64,000 nt of DNA, taken from the NCBI GenBank assembly GCA_017937485.1, contig JAGBDN010000020.1:1-64000 (forward strand), written 5' to 3'. A program made the position numbers and the translations under genes. The DNA is from Thermoguttaceae bacterium (GTDB lineage Bacteria > Planctomycetota > Planctomycetia > Pirellulales > Thermoguttaceae). How positions within the stretch are numbered: position 1 is the first letter of the stretch; each line of letters opens with the position of its first letter. Under the pieces are notes generated by a model. The model was not told the DNA's origin, ran no database searches, and worked only from the letters and a program-made list of their open reading frames with translations. This document shows positions 47,899 to 63,917 of this stretch, one piece after another.

Positions 47899-49008
47899 TT
47901 AGAGGCTCGCGTCGGTTTCGCCGCCGGCGCGGGTGCCGATAGCGCCCCAAACGCCGTAAGGCGATTTCCCGCCGTAGTCTTGCGGACGCGATTTGTTCGT
48001 CGCGACGTCGGCGGCGGAAAGGGATTGGTTCCCCGCGTCGACCGTTTCGCTAATGAAACGAACCGAACCGTCGCACATCACCGCGTTGACGCCGCCCGAG
48101 TGGTAGCTCGAAGCCGCCGCGATGCACCAGTCTTCCGCGCTGCCGTTCGCGCAGGACGGCGAGTTCGGCGGGAGAATCGTAAAGAACAGCGTGTAGTTGC
48201 CGTTGCAGTCGCCCCAACGGTAACCGTTTTGCCAGTCGCCGCTCCCTTGCGCGCTCGTGCCGGAAACGTATTCGCCGTTCGAACCGCGAACCGCCGCGCA
48301 GTTAACCGGTTTGAAACCGAGGGCCGGCCAATCGCAGGAGTGCGAACCGAAGTTCGAGCCGAGAATCGCGATGCCGCCCTTGACCTTGTTGACCGTCGAG
48401 CCCGTGCCGATGCAAACTTCCGACGCGAACATCGTGTTCGACGTGCCGTCGGTGATACCGGCGTAGTTCAGGTCGATTTTATTGTTGTCGGCGGCGATCC
48501 CGCGACATTCGTCCCATTCCCAACCCATCGCGATGTCGCCGCAGTTAATGCGGTAGCTCGTCGGTTGGATTTGACCGTCGGAGCGTTGCGCGCCGCCGTC
48601 GGACGGGCAAAGGAACGCGTCGATTTTGTTCGTCCAAATGAATTGACGGTCGGTCGACCACGGAACGCCGTTGCGCCCCTTTTCCGCGTCGTCGATGAAA
48701 TCGTTGTACATCGCGGTTTGTTCGATGAACGGAAGCATAACCGTCAGGTACGACCAACGTTCCCAACTGCCGTTGTTCGCGGCGTATTTTTTCAAAATGT
48801 GTTGCGCCGAACGAGCCGGAAGCATATTGTTGACGTCGTGGAAGTTTTGCGCGGCCAAACCGAGTTGTTTCAGTTGGTTCGTGCATTGCATACGACGCGC
48901 CGCTTCGCGCGCCGCTTGAACGGCCGGAAGCAAAAGACCAATCAAAATACCGATGATCGCGATAACGACCAACAGTTCGACAAGGGTAAAACCTCGACGT
49001 TTGGACAT
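47899..49008 (-). CDS. DUF1559 pseudopilin-like protein, array copy C
   Basis: 369 residues, AAAGG before the ATG. The prepilin leader is [24 protein letters not shown], with cleavage after Gly6 and methylation of Phe7 expected; the following helix is the type IV pilin-like anchor. [23 protein letters not shown] is the family signature. The C-terminal H-X9-DG motif ([17 protein letters not shown]) is present. DUF1559 proteins are exported by a type II/IV-like system in planctomycetes; their job is unknown, possibly surface fibres or polymer binding. Last gene of the alternating array. Sits after its own promoter. Confidence 0.95.
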
Positions 49009-49203
49009 AACTCAACCTTTCAAAATTCTTACAATCGTAAAATAAAAAACGCGTCGACCGCGCCCGCGCAAGAAATAAAAATTCGCGAACGTTAAACGTC
49101 GTTAAAAATTTCGTTTCTTGCGCGGGAACGGTCGACTTCAAGCGACGAAACGTCCGAAGGATTTCCGAACGCTTTTGCCTCTCGCCGCTTTTAATCTTCT
49201 TTT

Positions 49204-49232
49204 ATTTTACTCGTTTGTTTCAAGAATCTCAA
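49204..49232 (-). promoter_or_regulatory. Promoter of DUF1559 gene C
   Basis: Minus strand: TTGAGA (49227-49232), 17 bases, TAAAAT (49204-49209), about 195 bp before the start codon. Confidence 0.6.
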
Positions 49233-49353
49233 GCGATTTGCAACGTCAAACAAAAAATTTTATAAAAAAACGTTTTTTTTGCGAAACATTTTTGAAAAAC
49301 CGGAAAACCTTAACTTGCCGGTTGCGTAAAATAGGCGCTCTACATAAAAAAAT

Positions 49354-49408
49354 AAAAAAACGCCGAAACGTCGGCGCTTTTTACCAAGCGAACCTGCGTT
49401 TCGGCGTT
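49354..49408 (-). terminator. Terminator of lipoprotein gene 1
   Basis: AACGCCGAAACG (49359-49370) and CGTTTCGGCGTT (49397-49408) pair perfectly across 26 nt; seven T residues follow on the minus strand. The gene-34 counterpart at 51558 uses nearly the same arms. Confidence 0.75.
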
Positions 49409-49450
49409 CTTCGTTAACGTCGCTTTTCGCCGACGCTCAAAAATCCGAAA

Positions 49451-49951
49451 TTACTCTTCGAATTTGAGGTCGAAGTCGAATTTGTTTTTCGACGCGTCGT
49501 CGGTAACCGTAATGGTCAACGGCGTGGCGGCGGCGCTGGAATAAATTTCCGGGACGAGGTTTTCGCCGACGGCGCCGGTTCCGCTAAGACCGCCGTTCCC
49601 GTACTTGCGTTCTTGAAGTTCGTCGTAGGTGATTTCGCCCGCTTCGAAAGCCGCTTGGTCTTCGTCGACGACTTCTTCACGTTTCGAAATCGTAACTTTG
49701 TATTCGCCCGGAAGGAGACCTTCGCCGACGCTGCCGGAAACAGCCGAGTACGCGCCTTGAGCGTCGGTGATCGCGCTGCCGCTTTCGCCGCCTTGAACGT
49801 TCGGAATGAAAACGATCGTCGCGCCTTCGATCGGCGCGCCGTCGACCGTAACGACGCCGGTCGTTTTGCGATGGCCCGTGTCTTTAGCGCAACCGGAAAC
49901 CAAAACCGCGCTCGCGGCGATCGCGAGCAAAGCAAACATTTTCATTTTCAT
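49451..49951 (-). CDS. Small lipoprotein with Ig/transthyretin-like fold, array copy 1
   Basis: 166 residues. Leader MKMKMFALLAIAASAVLVSGC with lipobox Cys21. Mature chain: GVVTVDGAPIEGATIVFIPNVQGGESGSAITDAQGAYS, the pattern of a carboxypeptidase regulatory-like/transthyretin-like beta-sandwich, then LLPGEYKVTISKREEVVDEDQAAFEAGEI and an Asp/Lys-rich end. Such lipoproteins stand beside DUF1559 genes in many planctomycetes. Likely an envelope partner of the pseudopilins; inferred from position. About 65-70 % identical by eye to copy 2 at 51615. Lies between two DUF1559 genes. Confidence 0.9.
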   Translation of the reverse strand: MKMKMFALLAIAASAVLVSGCAKDTGHRKTTGVVTVDGAPIEGATIVFIPNVQGGESGSAITDAQGAYSAVSGSVGEGLLPGEYKVTISKREEVVDEDQAAFEAGEITYDELQERKYGNGGLSGTGAVGENLVPEIYSSAAATPLTITVTDDASKNKFDFDLKFEE

Positions 49952-50096
49952 CGTAAAATATTCTCCCGCGAACGTCGTTCGACAATTCGCCGTTATTTTT
50001 GGAAAATTAATAAACGCGCCGACGCAAACTAACGTTCGCGGCGGCGCGACTTTTAGCGCGTCGCGCTCTCAAACGCGCGCCGCTTTTTCGTTTTTA

Positions 50097-51200
50097 TTAG
50101 AGGCTCGCGTCGGTTTCGCCGCCGGACTTGGAGCCGAGAGCGCCCCAAACGCCGTAGACGGATTTACCCGCGTAGTCTTGCGGACGCGATTTGTTCGAGC
50201 AAACGTCGTACGCGTTTTTCGATTGGTCGCCGGCGTCGACCGTTTCGCTGATGAAGCGAACCGAACCGTCGACGAAAACCGCGTTGACGCCGCCCGAGTG
50301 ATAGCTCGAAGCCGACGTAATAACCCAGTCTTCCAAACCGTTGACGCCGCACGACGGGGAGTTCGGCGGGAGCATCGTGAAGAAGAAGGTGTAAACGCCC
50401 ATGCAGTCCGCCCAGCGCGTGCCGGAAAGTTGGTTGCTCGTCGTGCCGACTTTCGTGCCGGAAACGAATTCGCCGTTCGAGCCGCGAACCGCCGCGCAGT
50501 TCGACGGACGGAAGTTGATGTTGCCGTGGTTGCCGCCGATGAGAGCGACGCCGCCCTTGACTTTGTTCGTCGTGCCGCCCGAACCGACGCAGGCTTCCGA
50601 CGCGAAAATCGTGTTCGACGTGCCGTCGGTGATACCGGCGAAGTTCAGTTGGATTTTGTTGCCGTCCGACGCGACGCCGCGGCATTCGTCCCATTCCCAA
50701 GACATCGCAATATCGCCGCTGTTGATGCGGTAGTTGGTGGCTTTCATTTCGCCTTCGGCGCGTTTGTTGTTGCCGTCCGACGGGCAGAGGAACGCGTCGA
50801 TGTTGTTCATCCAAACGCGACGTTGACCGGTCTTATGCGGGTCGTCGGTCGTCCACGGCGACATACCGCCGTCTTCGAGGTCGCTAATGAATTGTTGGTA
50901 CGCCGCGTTTTGTTCGATGTACGGAAGCATCGTCGTCATGTACGAGAAGCGTTCCCACGAGCCGTTGTTCGACGAATATTTCTTCAAGATGTATTGCGCC
51001 GAACGGTTCGGGAGGTGGTTGTTAATATCGTGGAAGTTTTGCGCGGCCAAACCGAGTTGTTTCAGTTGGTTCGTGCATTGCATACGACGAGCCGCTTCGC
51101 GCGCCGCTTGAACGGCCGGCAAGAGAAGACCAATCAAAATACCGATGATCGCGATAACGACCAACAACTCGACAAGGGTAAAACCTTGGCGTTTAGACAT
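50097..51200 (-). CDS. DUF1559 pseudopilin-like protein, array copy B
   Basis: 367 residues. [24 protein letters not shown] leader, cleavage after Gly6, followed by the same [38 protein letters not shown] block as copies A and C. The C-terminal motif is [17 protein letters not shown] (H-X9-DG). The central domain differs most from its neighbours ([22 protein letters not shown]), so each copy may bind a different partner. Single-gene transcript, promoter at 51394-51421. Confidence 0.95.
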
Positions 51201-51393
51201 AGCTCAACCTTTCAATGTGCGATAAAAATGGAACGCAAAGACGCCGAACCCCGCGAAAACGCGTAATGCAATAGAAGTCCCGTCGTTCGGAGCGGAGCGC
51301 CCCCAACGTTAAGTAGGTTCGATTCGTCGCGACGAAACGTTTCGGAACTCTTTCCAAAGCGTTTTTGCCTCTCGCCGCTTTCAATTCTTGTTC

Positions 51394-51421
51394 ATTCTAA
51401 CAGCCGTTACGATTCCGGCAA
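51394..51421 (-). promoter_or_regulatory. Promoter of DUF1559 gene B
   Basis: Minus strand: TTGCCG (51416-51421), 16 bases, TAGAAT (51394-51399), about 190 bp before the start codon. Confidence 0.55.
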
Positions 51422-51557
51422 GAGTTTTGACGAGTAAAACGTTGAAAAATTCCAAAAAAAGACCTTTTTTTGCGAAACTTTTCCCCAAAACCGGAAAATT
51501 TCGCTTCTTCATTTCGGCGTTCTTTTCTCGACGCGCCCCCCGACGCCAAGAAACGCC

Positions 51558-51595
51558 AAACGCCGAAACGAAGATTTCGTCTCGGCGTTTTTTAC
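51558..51595 (-). terminator. Terminator of lipoprotein gene 2, bidirectional
   Basis: AACGCCGAAACGAA and TTCGTCTCGGCGTT pair with one mismatch around GAT, 27 nt after the stop. Confidence 0.75.
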
Positions 51596-51614
51596 TTTCG
51601 CTTGACGCGAACGA

Positions 51615-52106
51615 TTAGAAAGTCAGGTCGAAATTGAAGACGTTGTCTTTCGAGCTTTCCGTAACGGTCGCCGTCAAGTCGGTCGTCGCCGCGCTCGAAT
51701 ATTGTTCCGGAACAAGACTTTCGCCAACCGGCGCGCCGCCGCTGAGGCCCTTCTTCGCCTTGCGCTTTTGGAGTTCGTCGTAATCAATTTCGCCCGCGTC
51801 GAAGGCCGCTTGGTCTTCGTCGACGACTTCTTCGCGTTTCGAAATCGTAACTTTATATTGACCCGGCGCGATACCTTCGCCGACGCTTCCGGAAATAATC
51901 GAGTAAGCGCCTTTCGCGTCGGTGATCGCGCTTCCGCTCGCGCCGCCCGACGTCGACGGAACAAAGACGACGGTCGCGCCTTCGATCGGAGCGCCGTCGA
52001 CGGTAACGACGCCGGTCGCTTTGTACAGACCGTTGTTGCCGCCGCAACCGGAAACCAACATCGCGCACGCCGCGAACGCAATCAACGTCAGCGTTTTCAT
52101 TTTCAT
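51615..52106 (-). CDS. Small lipoprotein with Ig/transthyretin-like fold, array copy 2
   Basis: 163 residues. Leader MKMKTLTLIAFAACAMLVSGC, lipobox Cys21. Mature chain GVVTVDGAPIEGATVVFVPSTSGGASGSAITDAKGAYS, then KVTISKREEVVDEDQAAFDAGEIDYDELQKRKAKKG. Clearly a paralogue of copy 1, with the same pattern through the middle and a diverged end. Stands between DUF1559 genes A and B. Role unknown; probably an envelope-anchored partner. Confidence 0.9.
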   Translation of the reverse strand: MKMKTLTLIAFAACAMLVSGCGGNNGLYKATGVVTVDGAPIEGATVVFVPSTSGGASGSAITDAKGAYSIISGSVGEGIAPGQYKVTISKREEVVDEDQAAFDAGEIDYDELQKRKAKKGLSGGAPVGESLVPEQYSSAATTDLTATVTESSKDNVFNFDLTF

Positions 52107-52271
52107 TATTCTACTCTCCCAAACGGTCGACTCGCCGCCGACCGAGTTTTTACGTTGTTGAAAAGACTCGCTAAAAGAAAACGACGCCGCCGACCTAAGT
52201 CCGCGACGCCGTTTTGATCCGTTTTTCCGGGAAGCGCTCGACGACGCGTTCCCGAACGTCGCCGTTATCTA

Positions 52272-53405
52272 TTAAAGATTGACGTCGGTCTCGCCGCCGT
52301 AAATGGTGCCCATCGCGCCCCAGACGCCGTACGGGGATTTCCCGCCGTAGTCTTGCGGACGAGCCGAGTTCGGCGCGACTTGGTCGATCGAAATCGATTG
52401 GTCGCCGGCGTCGACCGTTTCGCTAACGAAACGAACCGAACCGTCGCAGAAAACGGTGTTGACGCCGCCCGAGTGATAGCTCGAAGCCGCCGCGATGCAC
52501 CAGTCTTCGCCGCCGCTGTTCGCGCAGGTCGGGGAGTTCGGCGGAAGAATCGTGAAAAACAACGTGTAGTTGCCGTTGCAGTCGCCCCAACGGTAACCGT
52601 TTTGCCAGTTGCCGCTCGCTTGAACGTTCGTGCCGGAAACGTAGGTTCCTTCCGAACCGCGAACCGCCGCGCAGTTGACCGGTTTGAAGCCGAGCGCCGG
52701 CCAGTCGCAGGCCGCGGAACCGAAGTTCCCGCCAAGAATCGCGATACCGCCCTTAACTTTGTTCGTGCCGTTAGAGGTCCCGATGCAGACTTCGGACGCG
52801 AAGACGGTGTTCGACGTGCCGTCGGTAATCCCGGAGTAATCCAGCGTGGCTATTTCGTTGTCGGCCGCGACCCCGCGGTTTTCGTTCCATTCCCACCCCA
52901 TCGCGATGTCGCCGCAGTTAATGCGGTAGCTCGTCGGTTTCACGTCGGAGGAGCGTTTCGAGCCGCCGTCGGACGGGCAAAGGAACGCGGAGACGGTCTT
53001 TTCCCAAACGAAATCGGCGTTAGCGTCCCACGGAGTCGGGTTTTTACCGGCTTCCAAGTCGGAGATCAGGTCTTGGTACAGCGCGCTTTGTTCGATGTAC
53101 GGAAGCGTCATCGCCAACCACGAAATACGAATCCAAGCGTCGGGGTTATTGCCGGAATACTTCTTCAGAATTTCTTGGCTCGAACGCCCCGGGAGGAACC
53201 CGTTCGTGTCGTGGAAGTTTTGCGCGGCCAAGCCGAGTTGTTTCAGTTGGTTCGTGCATTGCATACGTCGGGCCGCTTCGCGAGCCGCTTGAACGGCCGG
53301 CAAAAGCAAGCCGATCAAAATCCCGATAATCGCGATAACGACCAGCAATTCGACGAGGGTGAAACCGCGAAGTTTACCCCCCCCCCCCAGTTTAACATTT
53401 TTCAT
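52272..53405 (-). CDS. DUF1559 pseudopilin-like protein, array copy A, with poly-G start region
   Basis: 377 residues. The N-terminus is [28 protein letters not shown]: unlike copies B and C, a Gly4 stretch coded by a 12-G tract precedes the prepilin cleavage site (after Gly14). The rest is standard: [38 protein letters not shown] and YHSGGVNTVFCDGSVRF (H-X9-DG). With the tract as given the frame is open. One added G would bring a stop codon right after the tract, and one lost G would shift the frame too, so expression could switch. First gene of the alternating array. Own promoter. Confidence 0.93.
   Translation of the reverse strand: MKNVKLGGGGKLRGFTLVELLVVIAIIGILIGLLLPAVQAAREAARRMQCTNQLKQLGLAAQNFHDTNGFLPGRSSQEILKKYSGNNPDAWIRISWLAMTLPYIEQSALYQDLISDLEAGKNPTPWDANADFVWEKTVSAFLCPSDGGSKRSSDVKPTSYRINCGDIAMGWEWNENRGVAADNEIATLDYSGITDGTSNTVFASEVCIGTSNGTNKVKGGIAILGGNFGSAACDWPALGFKPVNCAAVRGSEGTYVSGTNVQASGNWQNGYRWGDCNGNYTLFFTILPPNSPTCANSGGEDWCIAAASSYHSGGVNTVFCDGSVRFVSETVDAGDQSISIDQVAPNSARPQDYGGKSPYGVWGAMGTIYGGETDVNL
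53377..53388. repeat. 12-base homopolymer C (G on the coding strand)
   Basis: Twelve identical bases inside codons 6-10 of DUF1559 gene A. Tracts of this length are prone to slipped-strand change. It could also be a read or assembly error. Confidence 0.9.
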
Positions 53406-61043: not shown

Positions 61044-63917
61044 TTAACCGACCGCCGAATCCTTCGAATCGTCCGATTCGTCGTCATCGTACCCGGCGCC
61101 GTAACCGTATCCGGCCCCGTAACCCGCGCCGTAGCCGTAACCGGCCCCGTACCCCGCGCCGTAGCCGTAACCGCCGCCGTAACCGTAGCCGCCGCCGTAG
61201 CCGTACCCGCCGCCGTAACCGTAGCCCGCGCCGTACCCGCCGCCGTAGCCGTAACCGTAGCCGTAATCGCCGTTTTGGTCTTCTTCGGCGAACTCGTTGT
61301 AAAAACGGTGTTTTTCATGGCAGTTGACGACGCAACCGATGATATTCGCGCCGACTTCCGCCAACGACTTAATACCGGCGACGACGTCCGGACGTCCGCG
61401 ACGGCGAACGCGGAAGACGTAGGTAACGCCGTCGACTCGCGTCGCCATCGACGCGGCGTCGGAAACGTACAACGTCGGCGGGGAGTCGATCAAAACGACG
61501 TCGAAATTCGAACGCAACTCTTCGAGCAACGCGTCGAACTCGGCGCCGGCGACCAATTCGGCCGGATTCTTACGTCGCGCGCCGGCGGTAACGACGGTCA
61601 GGTTTTTAACCGGAGTCGTTCGCAAAACGGATTCCAGCGCCATTTCGCCGCTCAACACGTTCGAAACGCCCTCTTTATTGTCCAATCCGAACCACTTGTG
61701 AACGTCCGGCTTGCGCAAGTCGCAGTCGACCAAAACGACGCGTTTGCCCGTTTCGGCGATCTTCACGGCGAGGTTCGAGAAGAACATCGTCTTCCCGTCG
61801 CTCGGGTGCGGACTCGTGTTCAAAACGACGCGACCGCGACCGTTCGACGGCTGATTGAAAAGTCGCGTGCGGATTTGTCGGAAAACTTCGCACGCCGGGG
61901 CGTTCGGTTTATAGAACGCGAGCAATTCCGGGTCGGGTTGCCGAGCTTCGCGCGCTTCCTTCTTCTTTTTCGGCGTCGCGTCTTTCAAAGCGGACTTGAA
62001 CGACGGCAAATGCGTCAAGATCGGAACGCGAAGCGCGCGGGAAATTTCGCTCGGCGAGCGGAAGGTCGCGTCGCAAACGTCGACCAAATAGGCCAACGCA
62101 AAACCGCAAACGAACCCGAGCGCGAAACCGACGAACGCGAATTTAATCAAGTTCGGGTAAACCGCGACGTAATTCAAACTCGGCTCCGCGACGCGCAACT
62201 CGTGTTCGTCGACGTTGCTGACGAGCGCGAGACTTTCCAAACTTTGCCCAAAGTTCTGGTGCATCGTTTTGAGCGACTCAAGCGCGACCCGTTTCGCCGC
62301 GAGTTCTTCGCGGTACTCGTTCATTTTACGAACTTCCGGATCGTAAGAACGCATATATTCTTCCGTTTTCATTTGAATCGCGTTCAATTCCGCGATCTTT
62401 TGACGAACGGCGTTAACGTATCCTTCGAAGAAGTCCGGATAATTGAGCGTGCCGATCGAGCCGACGTCGTTAATATTCGCCAACGTCTCCGCCAACTGTT
62501 CTTTCCGCAACGCGAGTCGTTTTTCAAGTTCGACGACTTTCGGGTGCGAGTCCGCAAACTTAAGTCGTTCGGCCGACAGCTCCCCTTCGAGCTTGGCGAC
62601 CTCTTCTTCTTCGCGTTGGCGCGCCGTGGTGGCCATCATACTGGCGGAGAGCGTTTCCGTGTCTTGCGAACCGCGCGCCGTGTTCAACATTTGCGACAAA
62701 ATCGTATCGTTGTCGCTGGAGCCCAACATCGAAATAATTTCATGCGTCGGCACGTCGTGAATATCGCGGCCCATCAACGCGTCTTCAAGGCTGTCCAACC
62801 GCGTGTTCCACTTCATAATTTCGAGGTCGATCGCGACTTGCCCTTCGCTCATCCCGACCAAACGCGCCAACAACGGGTTGTTTTCCTCGTTCCCCATATG
62901 CGTAACGTCGGCGGAACTGGCCAAATCGAGCAGCTCGCGCGTTTTTTCTTCGATTTCGACGTGCAACGCGGCTTGGTGCTTTTCAATCTCTTTGCGAACA
63001 AACTCGCTCTTGTTGTTGTACGTTGCGTGGAAGTATTTCTTGAATTCGTCGACAACGACTTGAACGATCAGCTGCGCTTCTTCCGGATCCAGCGTAACGC
63101 AGGACACCGAAATAACGTTCGCGTCTTCGAAATCGCGCCCCTTCCCGCCCTTTTTAACGGAAAGCATTTTACGCAACATACCGATGGCGATCGCTTTTTT
63201 CCGTCTCTCTTCCTTCGCCGCGACGGAAGTCGCGCGGGTTTCGTCTTGCGTCTCCTCGACGGCGACTTCGCCGTCGGATTCGGCGACGGGTTCAACGTTC
63301 GCTTTCTTTTCTTGCGCTTCCGGCTCGACGCCTTTCGTTTCCGCGACCAATCGCGCGCTCGCTTCGACCAGCTCATTAAAACTCTGAGAGAAAAACGGCG
63401 CGTCTTGCGAATATTTCCCCAAAAGCGCGTTGCTCACCGGCTCCAAAATCACGTCGCTAACGATAACCGTGGAAAGCGTCTCCAGGTTGTCGATTTTCGT
63501 TTGATTATTCGCGGCGCTCGTTTGGTCGTAGGAACGCAACAACGCCGACGCGCTCGCCGACGGGAAATACATTTCCACGCTCGACTCGTATTCTTTGGGC
63601 GTAACGGTGTATTTGTAAACAGCCAACGCGCCGCCGATAATCGTCATCAAAACGACGATCCAAAGTTGACGACGTAAAATCCCCAAAACGTCGAAGAAAT
63701 TTAAATCGCGTTCGCCCATTCCGGTTCCGCCGATTTGCGGAGCGGGTCCGCGCGGAACGTCGACGGAACGCCGTTCCCCCCACGCCCCGCCGCCGACGTC
63801 GCGTTTTTTCTTCGCCGTCTTCGGCGCGCCGTCTCGAAGCGTCGAGGAAGTCGACGCCGCGTTCTTCCATTGCGGAGAATTGTTCTGCGAACCGTTCTCT
63901 GTAGTCATATCTTTCAT
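61044..63917 (-). CDS. Polysaccharide biosynthesis tyrosine autokinase (Wzc/BY-kinase type) with Gly-Tyr tail
   Basis: 957 residues from the ATG at 63917 with an AGGAATTGGG site; a second ATG lies 9 bp on. An N-terminal Ser/Lys-rich stretch precedes a Wzz domain with helix 1 (LWIVVLMTIIGGALAVYKYTV), a long periplasmic coiled-coil part, a GNVR-like segment and helix 2 (FAFVGFALGFVCGFALAYLVDV). The cytoplasmic kinase has Walker A SPHPSDGKTMFF (about 698-709), Walker A' VVLVDCDLRKPD and Walker B VVLIDSPPT. The C-terminal tail (about 883-943) is a pure Gly/Tyr/Ala repeat with 20 Tyr, far more than the 5-7 in Wzc. Controls chain length and export of a surface polysaccharide by cycles of tyrosine phosphorylation. 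No export or glycosyltransferase gene adjoins in the window. Confidence 0.95.
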   Translation of the reverse strand: MKDMTTENGSQNNSPQWKNAASTSSTLRDGAPKTAKKKRDVGGGAWGERRSVDVPRGPAPQIGGTGMGERDLNFFDVLGILRRQLWIVVLMTIIGGALAVYKYTVTPKEYESSVEMYFPSASASALLRSYDQTSAANNQTKIDNLETLSTVIVSDVILEPVSNALLGKYSQDAPFFSQSFNELVEASARLVAETKGVEPEAQEKKANVEPVAESDGEVAVEETQDETRATSVAAKEERRKKAIAIGMLRKMLSVKKGGKGRDFEDANVISVSCVTLDPEEAQLIVQVVVDEFKKYFHATYNNKSEFVRKEIEKHQAALHVEIEEKTRELLDLASSADVTHMGNEENNPLLARLVGMSEGQVAIDLEIMKWNTRLDSLEDALMGRDIHDVPTHEIISMLGSSDNDTILSQMLNTARGSQDTETLSASMMATTARQREEEEVAKLEGELSAERLKFADSHPKVVELEKRLALRKEQLAETLANINDVGSIGTLNYPDFFEGYVNAVRQKIAELNAIQMKTEEYMRSYDPEVRKMNEYREELAAKRVALESLKTMHQNFGQSLESLALVSNVDEHELRVAEPSLNYVAVYPNLIKFAFVGFALGFVCGFALAYLVDVCDATFRSPSEISRALRVPILTHLPSFKSALKDATPKKKKEAREARQPDPELLAFYKPNAPACEVFRQIRTRLFNQPSNGRGRVVLNTSPHPSDGKTMFFSNLAVKIAETGKRVVLVDCDLRKPDVHKWFGLDNKEGVSNVLSGEMALESVLRTTPVKNLTVVTAGARRKNPAELVAGAEFDALLEELRSNFDVVLIDSPPTLYVSDAASMATRVDGVTYVFRVRRRGRPDVVAGIKSLAEVGANIIGCVVNCHEKHRFYNEFAEEDQNGDYGYGYGYGGGYGAGYGYGGGYGYGGGYGYGGGYGYGAGYGAGYGYGAGYGAGYGYGAGYDDDESDDSKDSAVG
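61085..61265. repeat. Tandem DNA repeat coding for the Gly-Tyr tail
   Basis: Repeats of CCGTA(G/A)CCG(C/T) units of 6, 12 and 18 bases code for GY, GAGY, GGGYGY. Third-base changes differ among the units, so the repeat is kept at protein level rather than being recent exact copies. Confidence 0.8.

Follow-up and report, generated by a model that had tools for sequence, protein, structure and literature searches.

A Wzc-type BY-kinase of gut Thermoguttaceae with a 20-tyrosine Gly-Tyr repeat tail

The 64,000-nucleotide stretch of DNA analyzed here (the window) encodes an intact Wzc-type BY-kinase of 957 aa that carries 20 tyrosines in a Gly-Tyr (GY) repeat at aa 885–943, confirming what had been proposed from the sequence alone, whereas the usual BY-kinase tail contains 4–9 tyrosines. 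The account that we consider reasonably probable is that of a genuine Wzc-type BY-kinase in which the tail tyrosine cluster has expanded from about 10 to 20–32 residues, which would give a longer ratchet track and a buffered, graded switch. The expansion is real and inherited through the lineage. It exaggerates an on/off switch that is already known and does not make the protein a novel type; the family, the tail and the GY chemistry all have precedents, and what is new is the size and regularity of the tail, fixed in the clade. The gene and its parts are located as follows.

61044..63917, minus strand: Wzc-type (PCP-2a) BY-kinase gene, 957 aa (ORF; Pfam Wzz and AAA_31; TIGR01007)
63426..63707, minus strand: Wzz chain-length determinant domain, aa 71–164 (Pfam PF02706, 30.9 bits, cut-off 25.5)
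63603..63659, minus strand: transmembrane helix 1, about aa 87–105 (Kyte-Doolittle scan)
62082..62138, minus strand: transmembrane helix 2, about aa 594–612 (Kyte-Doolittle scan)
61308..61925, minus strand: BY-kinase domain, predicted cytosolic, about aa 665–870 (Wzc K30 alignment, AF2, Foldseek)
61089..61265, minus strand: GY tail, aa 885–943, a 59-aa X-Gly dipeptide array with 20 Tyr (residue count, AF2, homologous tails)
61047..61088, minus strand: acidic C-terminus DDDESDDSKDSAVG, aa 944–957, different in other genera

Pfam AAA_31 matched the protein at aa 708–825, and the NCBIfam profile for polysaccharide-biosynthesis tyrosine autokinases (TIGR01007) scored 132 bits vs. a cut-off of 108. 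The best solved relatives in a PDB search were BceF (E 8e-38) and Wzc K30 (E 3e-32), with CapAB and Etk also found; similarly, a Foldseek search with an AF2 model, built with an alignment of 50 sequences, ranked CapAB, Wzc, BceF and Etk highest and matched 7nhr/3la6. Alignment with Wzc K30 located Walker A (K709), Walker A′ (D731/D733) and Walker B (D811), as well as the EX2RX2R oligomerisation motif (E677/R680/R683, equivalent to E508/R511/R514 of Wzc K30), and the residues identical to Wzc K30 comprise E508, R511, R514, P536, D562, D564 and D642. The Tyr-pocket residues are P705 (Wzc P536) and D844, an Asp for Wzc E675. Both the lysine and the threonine of Walker A are kept in the window kinase, while the solved Wzc is the K540M form. 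Thus Walker A/A′/B, EX2RX2R and a C-terminal tyrosine cluster, the marks of a BY-kinase, occur together, and the Wzz domain, two transmembrane helices and the kinase lie in a single chain as in PCP-2a co-polymerases. Given the two predicted membrane helices and the known PCP-2a plan, from which the topology is borrowed, the kinase and its tail should be cytosolic. In the AF2 model, most of the kinase domain had a pLDDT above 90, and the entire tail fell below 50 without secondary structure, so that the tail is predicted to be disordered; a disorder prediction was among the checks that had been suggested.

The 59-aa GY block consists of 33 Gly, 20 Tyr and 6 Ala, with all alternate residues being Gly; it is one third Tyr, uncharged, and without Lys or Arg. 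The distances between neighbouring tyrosines are exclusively 2 (9 times) or 4 (10 times), that is, a YxY (i/i-2) arrangement occurs at 9 of the 19 pairs and a spacing of four at the other 10, while two paralogues of the sister genus g34 have no YxY at all. Against a Tyr background of 2.2% in the remaining ORF, the binomial probability of at least 20 Tyr among 59 residues is about 1e-18. Among the window ORFs of at least 150 aa, no further one exceeded 8 Tyr per 60 aa. A search of the 4.37-Mb genome with the pattern YGYGxGYG returned seven occurrences, every one inside the kinase tail, and no second GY-rich protein. The acidic end noted in the sequence-only reading is present in the window but absent beyond its closer relatives, as other genera end, for example, in ERRSA or SKQTRKTG; a conserved acidic C-terminus was therefore ruled out.

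The tail tyrosines of relatives were counted over the stretch that begins at the conserved Asn in the VVN motif and runs to the stop, a measure by which the window kinase has 21, 20 of them within the block. The nearest organisms are Thermoguttaceae MAGs from the ruminant gut (RGIG series), with 87–94% identity over the kinase domain. The kinase was found in 20 of 20 genomes of the genus, with the tail in frame in all 20; the 18 complete genes carry 20–32 tail tyrosines, and two further genes stop inside the tail at a contig edge. In the sister genus g34, 12 proteins from seven genomes, with up to three paralogues per genome, carry 20–29 tyrosines. Lower counts were found in the outgroup genera g27 (12–13) and g40 (10–15), and other sampled members of the family and order have 0–16, G020 with 20 being the exception. 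These counts across planctomycete Wzc homologues, the comparison that had been suggested for checking the unusual tail length, bear it out. In a FastTree phylogeny of the kinase domain, the long tails form one clade (g1 and g34; g27 falls within it or next to it) whose nearest outgroups have 10–15 tyrosines, and G020 is placed elsewhere, so that, going by the FastTree topology, the long tail appears to have arisen at least twice. The even Tyr register is kept in 7 of 7 subclade members, while genus members outside the subclade lose it and use a 3-residue spacing too. The tyrosines in the tails of L056 and L059 (g34) lie almost exclusively four residues apart and form no YxY pair, unlike the published ratchet motif.

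Shorter runs are widespread. YGYGxGYG was present in 75 of 392 Planctomycetota genomes, and many of the runs inspected form the C-termini of BY-kinases, where the count reaches at most 13 Tyr. The search also picked up Tyr-Gly runs in ORFs that are small or do not encode kinases (L141, L150, L159, L176 and others), which were set aside as artefacts of frame or as unrelated proteins. Ten plasmid-borne BY-kinases from Bacillota, Pseudomonadota, Deinococcota and Bacteroidota carry 4–9 Tyr, several as GYGYGYG.

The sequences come from metagenome assemblies, and the contigs of two relatives break inside the tail, which suggests that the repeat hinders assembly and that the number of copies may be wrong by one or two units. 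A tail created by misassembly, which the sequence-only reading had allowed for, or by contamination is nevertheless scarcely credible, since the tail is open, in frame, homologous and diverged in 18 complete genes from the genus and in 12 from g34. Furthermore, the gene order HD-domain gene, small secreted-type protein, BY-kinase, frr, rny and ribBA is largely kept in named relatives, some contigs being short. The presence of the tail as an artefact is refuted by these relatives, and a frame error was likewise ruled out because all of them have a homologous, open block in the same frame. The repeat count in these assemblies is only approximate, but the tail itself is real.

The tail DNA is tandemly repeated with periods of 12, 18, 30 and 36 bp, and tail length and unit order differ freely among close relatives, which together show growth by repeat expansion. 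Both observations would also be expected if the expansion were neutral, with a few N-proximal tyrosines sufficing and extra GY units accruing by slippage without measurable effect, and E. coli Wzc indeed needs no single Tyr (PMC8285477). We regard neutral expansion as unlikely, though with a real chance of being right. Slippage should produce contractions too, yet every complete gene of the genus and of g34 has at least 20 tail tyrosines; several g34 paralogues retain long tails; and the X-Gly composition is retained as synonymous codons diverge. Across the tails of seven close relatives, 445 synonymous and 206 non-synonymous codon differences were counted pairwise, in a comparison that also covers flanks outside the repeat, enters related pairs more than once and rests on an ambiguous repeat alignment. 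The window block uses all four Gly codons and relatives outside the subclade use both TAC and TAT, indicating that the block did not arise by recent copying of a single DNA unit. Taken together, the codons suggest that the X-Gly/Tyr make-up is kept at the protein level and are no proof that the number of tyrosines matters; the 2/4 register could simply reflect slippage of 6/12-bp repeats.

No EPS gene cluster was found around the kinase gene or around the OPX gene. The genome contains one OPX and three LMWPc genes, all on other contigs and unlinked to the kinase, so the usual Wzc context, with OPX/Wza and phosphatase/Wzb in an EPS locus, was not observed. This context is usual for Wzc but not defining, and Etk is likewise unlinked in many strains. 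The LMWPc on contig 75, which carries CHGNICRS and DPWY, would be the likely eraser of the tail phosphates as an unlinked low-molecular-weight tyrosine phosphatase. Another, at L173:7835-9010 (contig 45), is a Sua5/YrdC-like domain apparently fused to an LMW phosphatase domain (about 391 aa), and the third resembles arsenate reductases as judged from its motifs. The only OPX (Wza-like) gene, at L171:9990-11321 (contig 14), lies directly before apparent rpsB and tsf. The small secreted-type protein just upstream of the kinase (196 aa; L032:4465-5055, contig 44) is fast-evolving, being only 50–65% identical where the relatives' kinase is 80–87% identical. Elsewhere in the window, three prepilin-type genes of about 370 aa each (DUF1559-like, judged from sequence) lie at 47899-53405 on the minus strand, interleaved with two lipoprotein-like genes of about 165 aa, a pattern of tandem amplification that seems usual for planctomycetes.

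In E. coli Wzc, one subunit inserts its tail into the active site of its neighbour, and this holds the octamer together; phosphates are added from the C- to the N-terminus through a YxY clamp, with Tyr i-2 in a pocket; and in the published model every added phosphate makes the octamer less stable, until the fourth marks the tipping point and dissolves it (PMC8285477; PMC11986026). Function is set by the extent of phosphorylation and not by any single Tyr (PMC8285477; PMC11986026), and many alternative combinations of phosphorylation sites were found for Wzc of E. coli K12 (PMC12881504). Since the tail-binding and threading residues of E. coli Wzc are conserved in the window kinase, the best reading is the published ratchet on a roughly threefold longer track. 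Accepting this, a (YG)n tail that ancestrally held some 10 Tyr would have expanded to 20–32 in one gut Thermoguttaceae lineage, on a kinase that presumably regulates polysaccharide polymerisation and export. The disordered tail would thread the active site of the neighbouring subunit, with one Tyr in the catalytic site and the Tyr two positions before it in the pocket. With 20 or more equivalent tyrosines per chain, the dephosphorylated octamer could bind in many alternative registers and, with room for more phosphate in each ring, take up many phosphorylations before coming apart, so that the output would be a buffered, graded function of the kinase/phosphatase balance. Given the 3-residue spacing in the genus and the absence of YxY from the two g34 paralogues, the i/i-2 clamp cannot be necessary at every step, and long tails therefore seem able to do without a strict YxY clamp. 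Of the two functions put forward in the sequence-only reading, a graded phosphorylation switch is favoured by the published Wzc work and the conserved active-site residues.

The other function put forward was condensation, in which the export machine would cluster at the membrane through Tyr stickers and Gly spacers, and phosphorylation, able to put as many as about 40 negative charges on a chain, would dissolve the cluster. The predicted disorder, the one-third Tyr content, the Gly spacers and the uncharged GY block are consistent with it. However, the block is without Arg, so that intra-tail Tyr-Arg contacts are missing, ordinary BY-kinases bear short (YG)n tails of like make-up, and a literature search combining Wzc with phase separation found no Wzc paper; we hold condensation to be improbable. 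The resemblance drawn to adhesive or phase-separating GY proteins is unneeded to account for the composition, because short (YG)n tails are common on BY-kinases. For a broader proposal, that the switch has become in gut planctomycetes a multivalent phosphorylation-controlled condensate or a high-capacity phosphate counter at the inner membrane, we have considerable doubt. If it were true, about 160 to 250 tyrosines per octamer would set polysaccharide chain length or export timing.

The natural series of about 5, 10–15, 20 and 32 tyrosines on one kinase scaffold offers a test of tail-length tuning, and bears on the question of how tail phosphorylation of a BY-kinase sets polymer length. It is also a clear bacterial case of regulatory low-complexity repeat expansion.

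No paper describing such a GY-expanded BY-kinase tail was found in a literature search, with most subscription journals being outside its reach. Like Wzc of K30 and K12, the window protein combines a Wzz domain, two transmembrane helices, a BY-kinase and a C-terminal Tyr tail, with identical catalytic, EX2RX2R and P536 residues; unlike them, it has about three times more tail tyrosines in a regular X-Gly repeat, an Asp for E675, and a gene outside an EPS cluster. The CpsD of S. pneumoniae has a (YGX)4 repeat domain of four repeats with three phosphorylated tyrosines (Morona 2003, as cited in PMC4574921). CpsD is similar in that its tail is built of Tyr-Gly repeats, and different in that its kinase and membrane modulator are separate proteins. 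The tail chemistry is shared with the short-(YG)n BY-kinases of other Planctomycetota and other phyla, e.g., GYGYGYGYGYGYG, although those sampled have at most 16 Tyr vs. 20–32 in the window's clade, with the separate lineage G020 also reaching 20. Because (YG)n tails are common in the BY-kinases of planctomycetes and occur in other phyla, the long tail is best described as a lineage-specific expansion of an ordinary tyrosine cluster.
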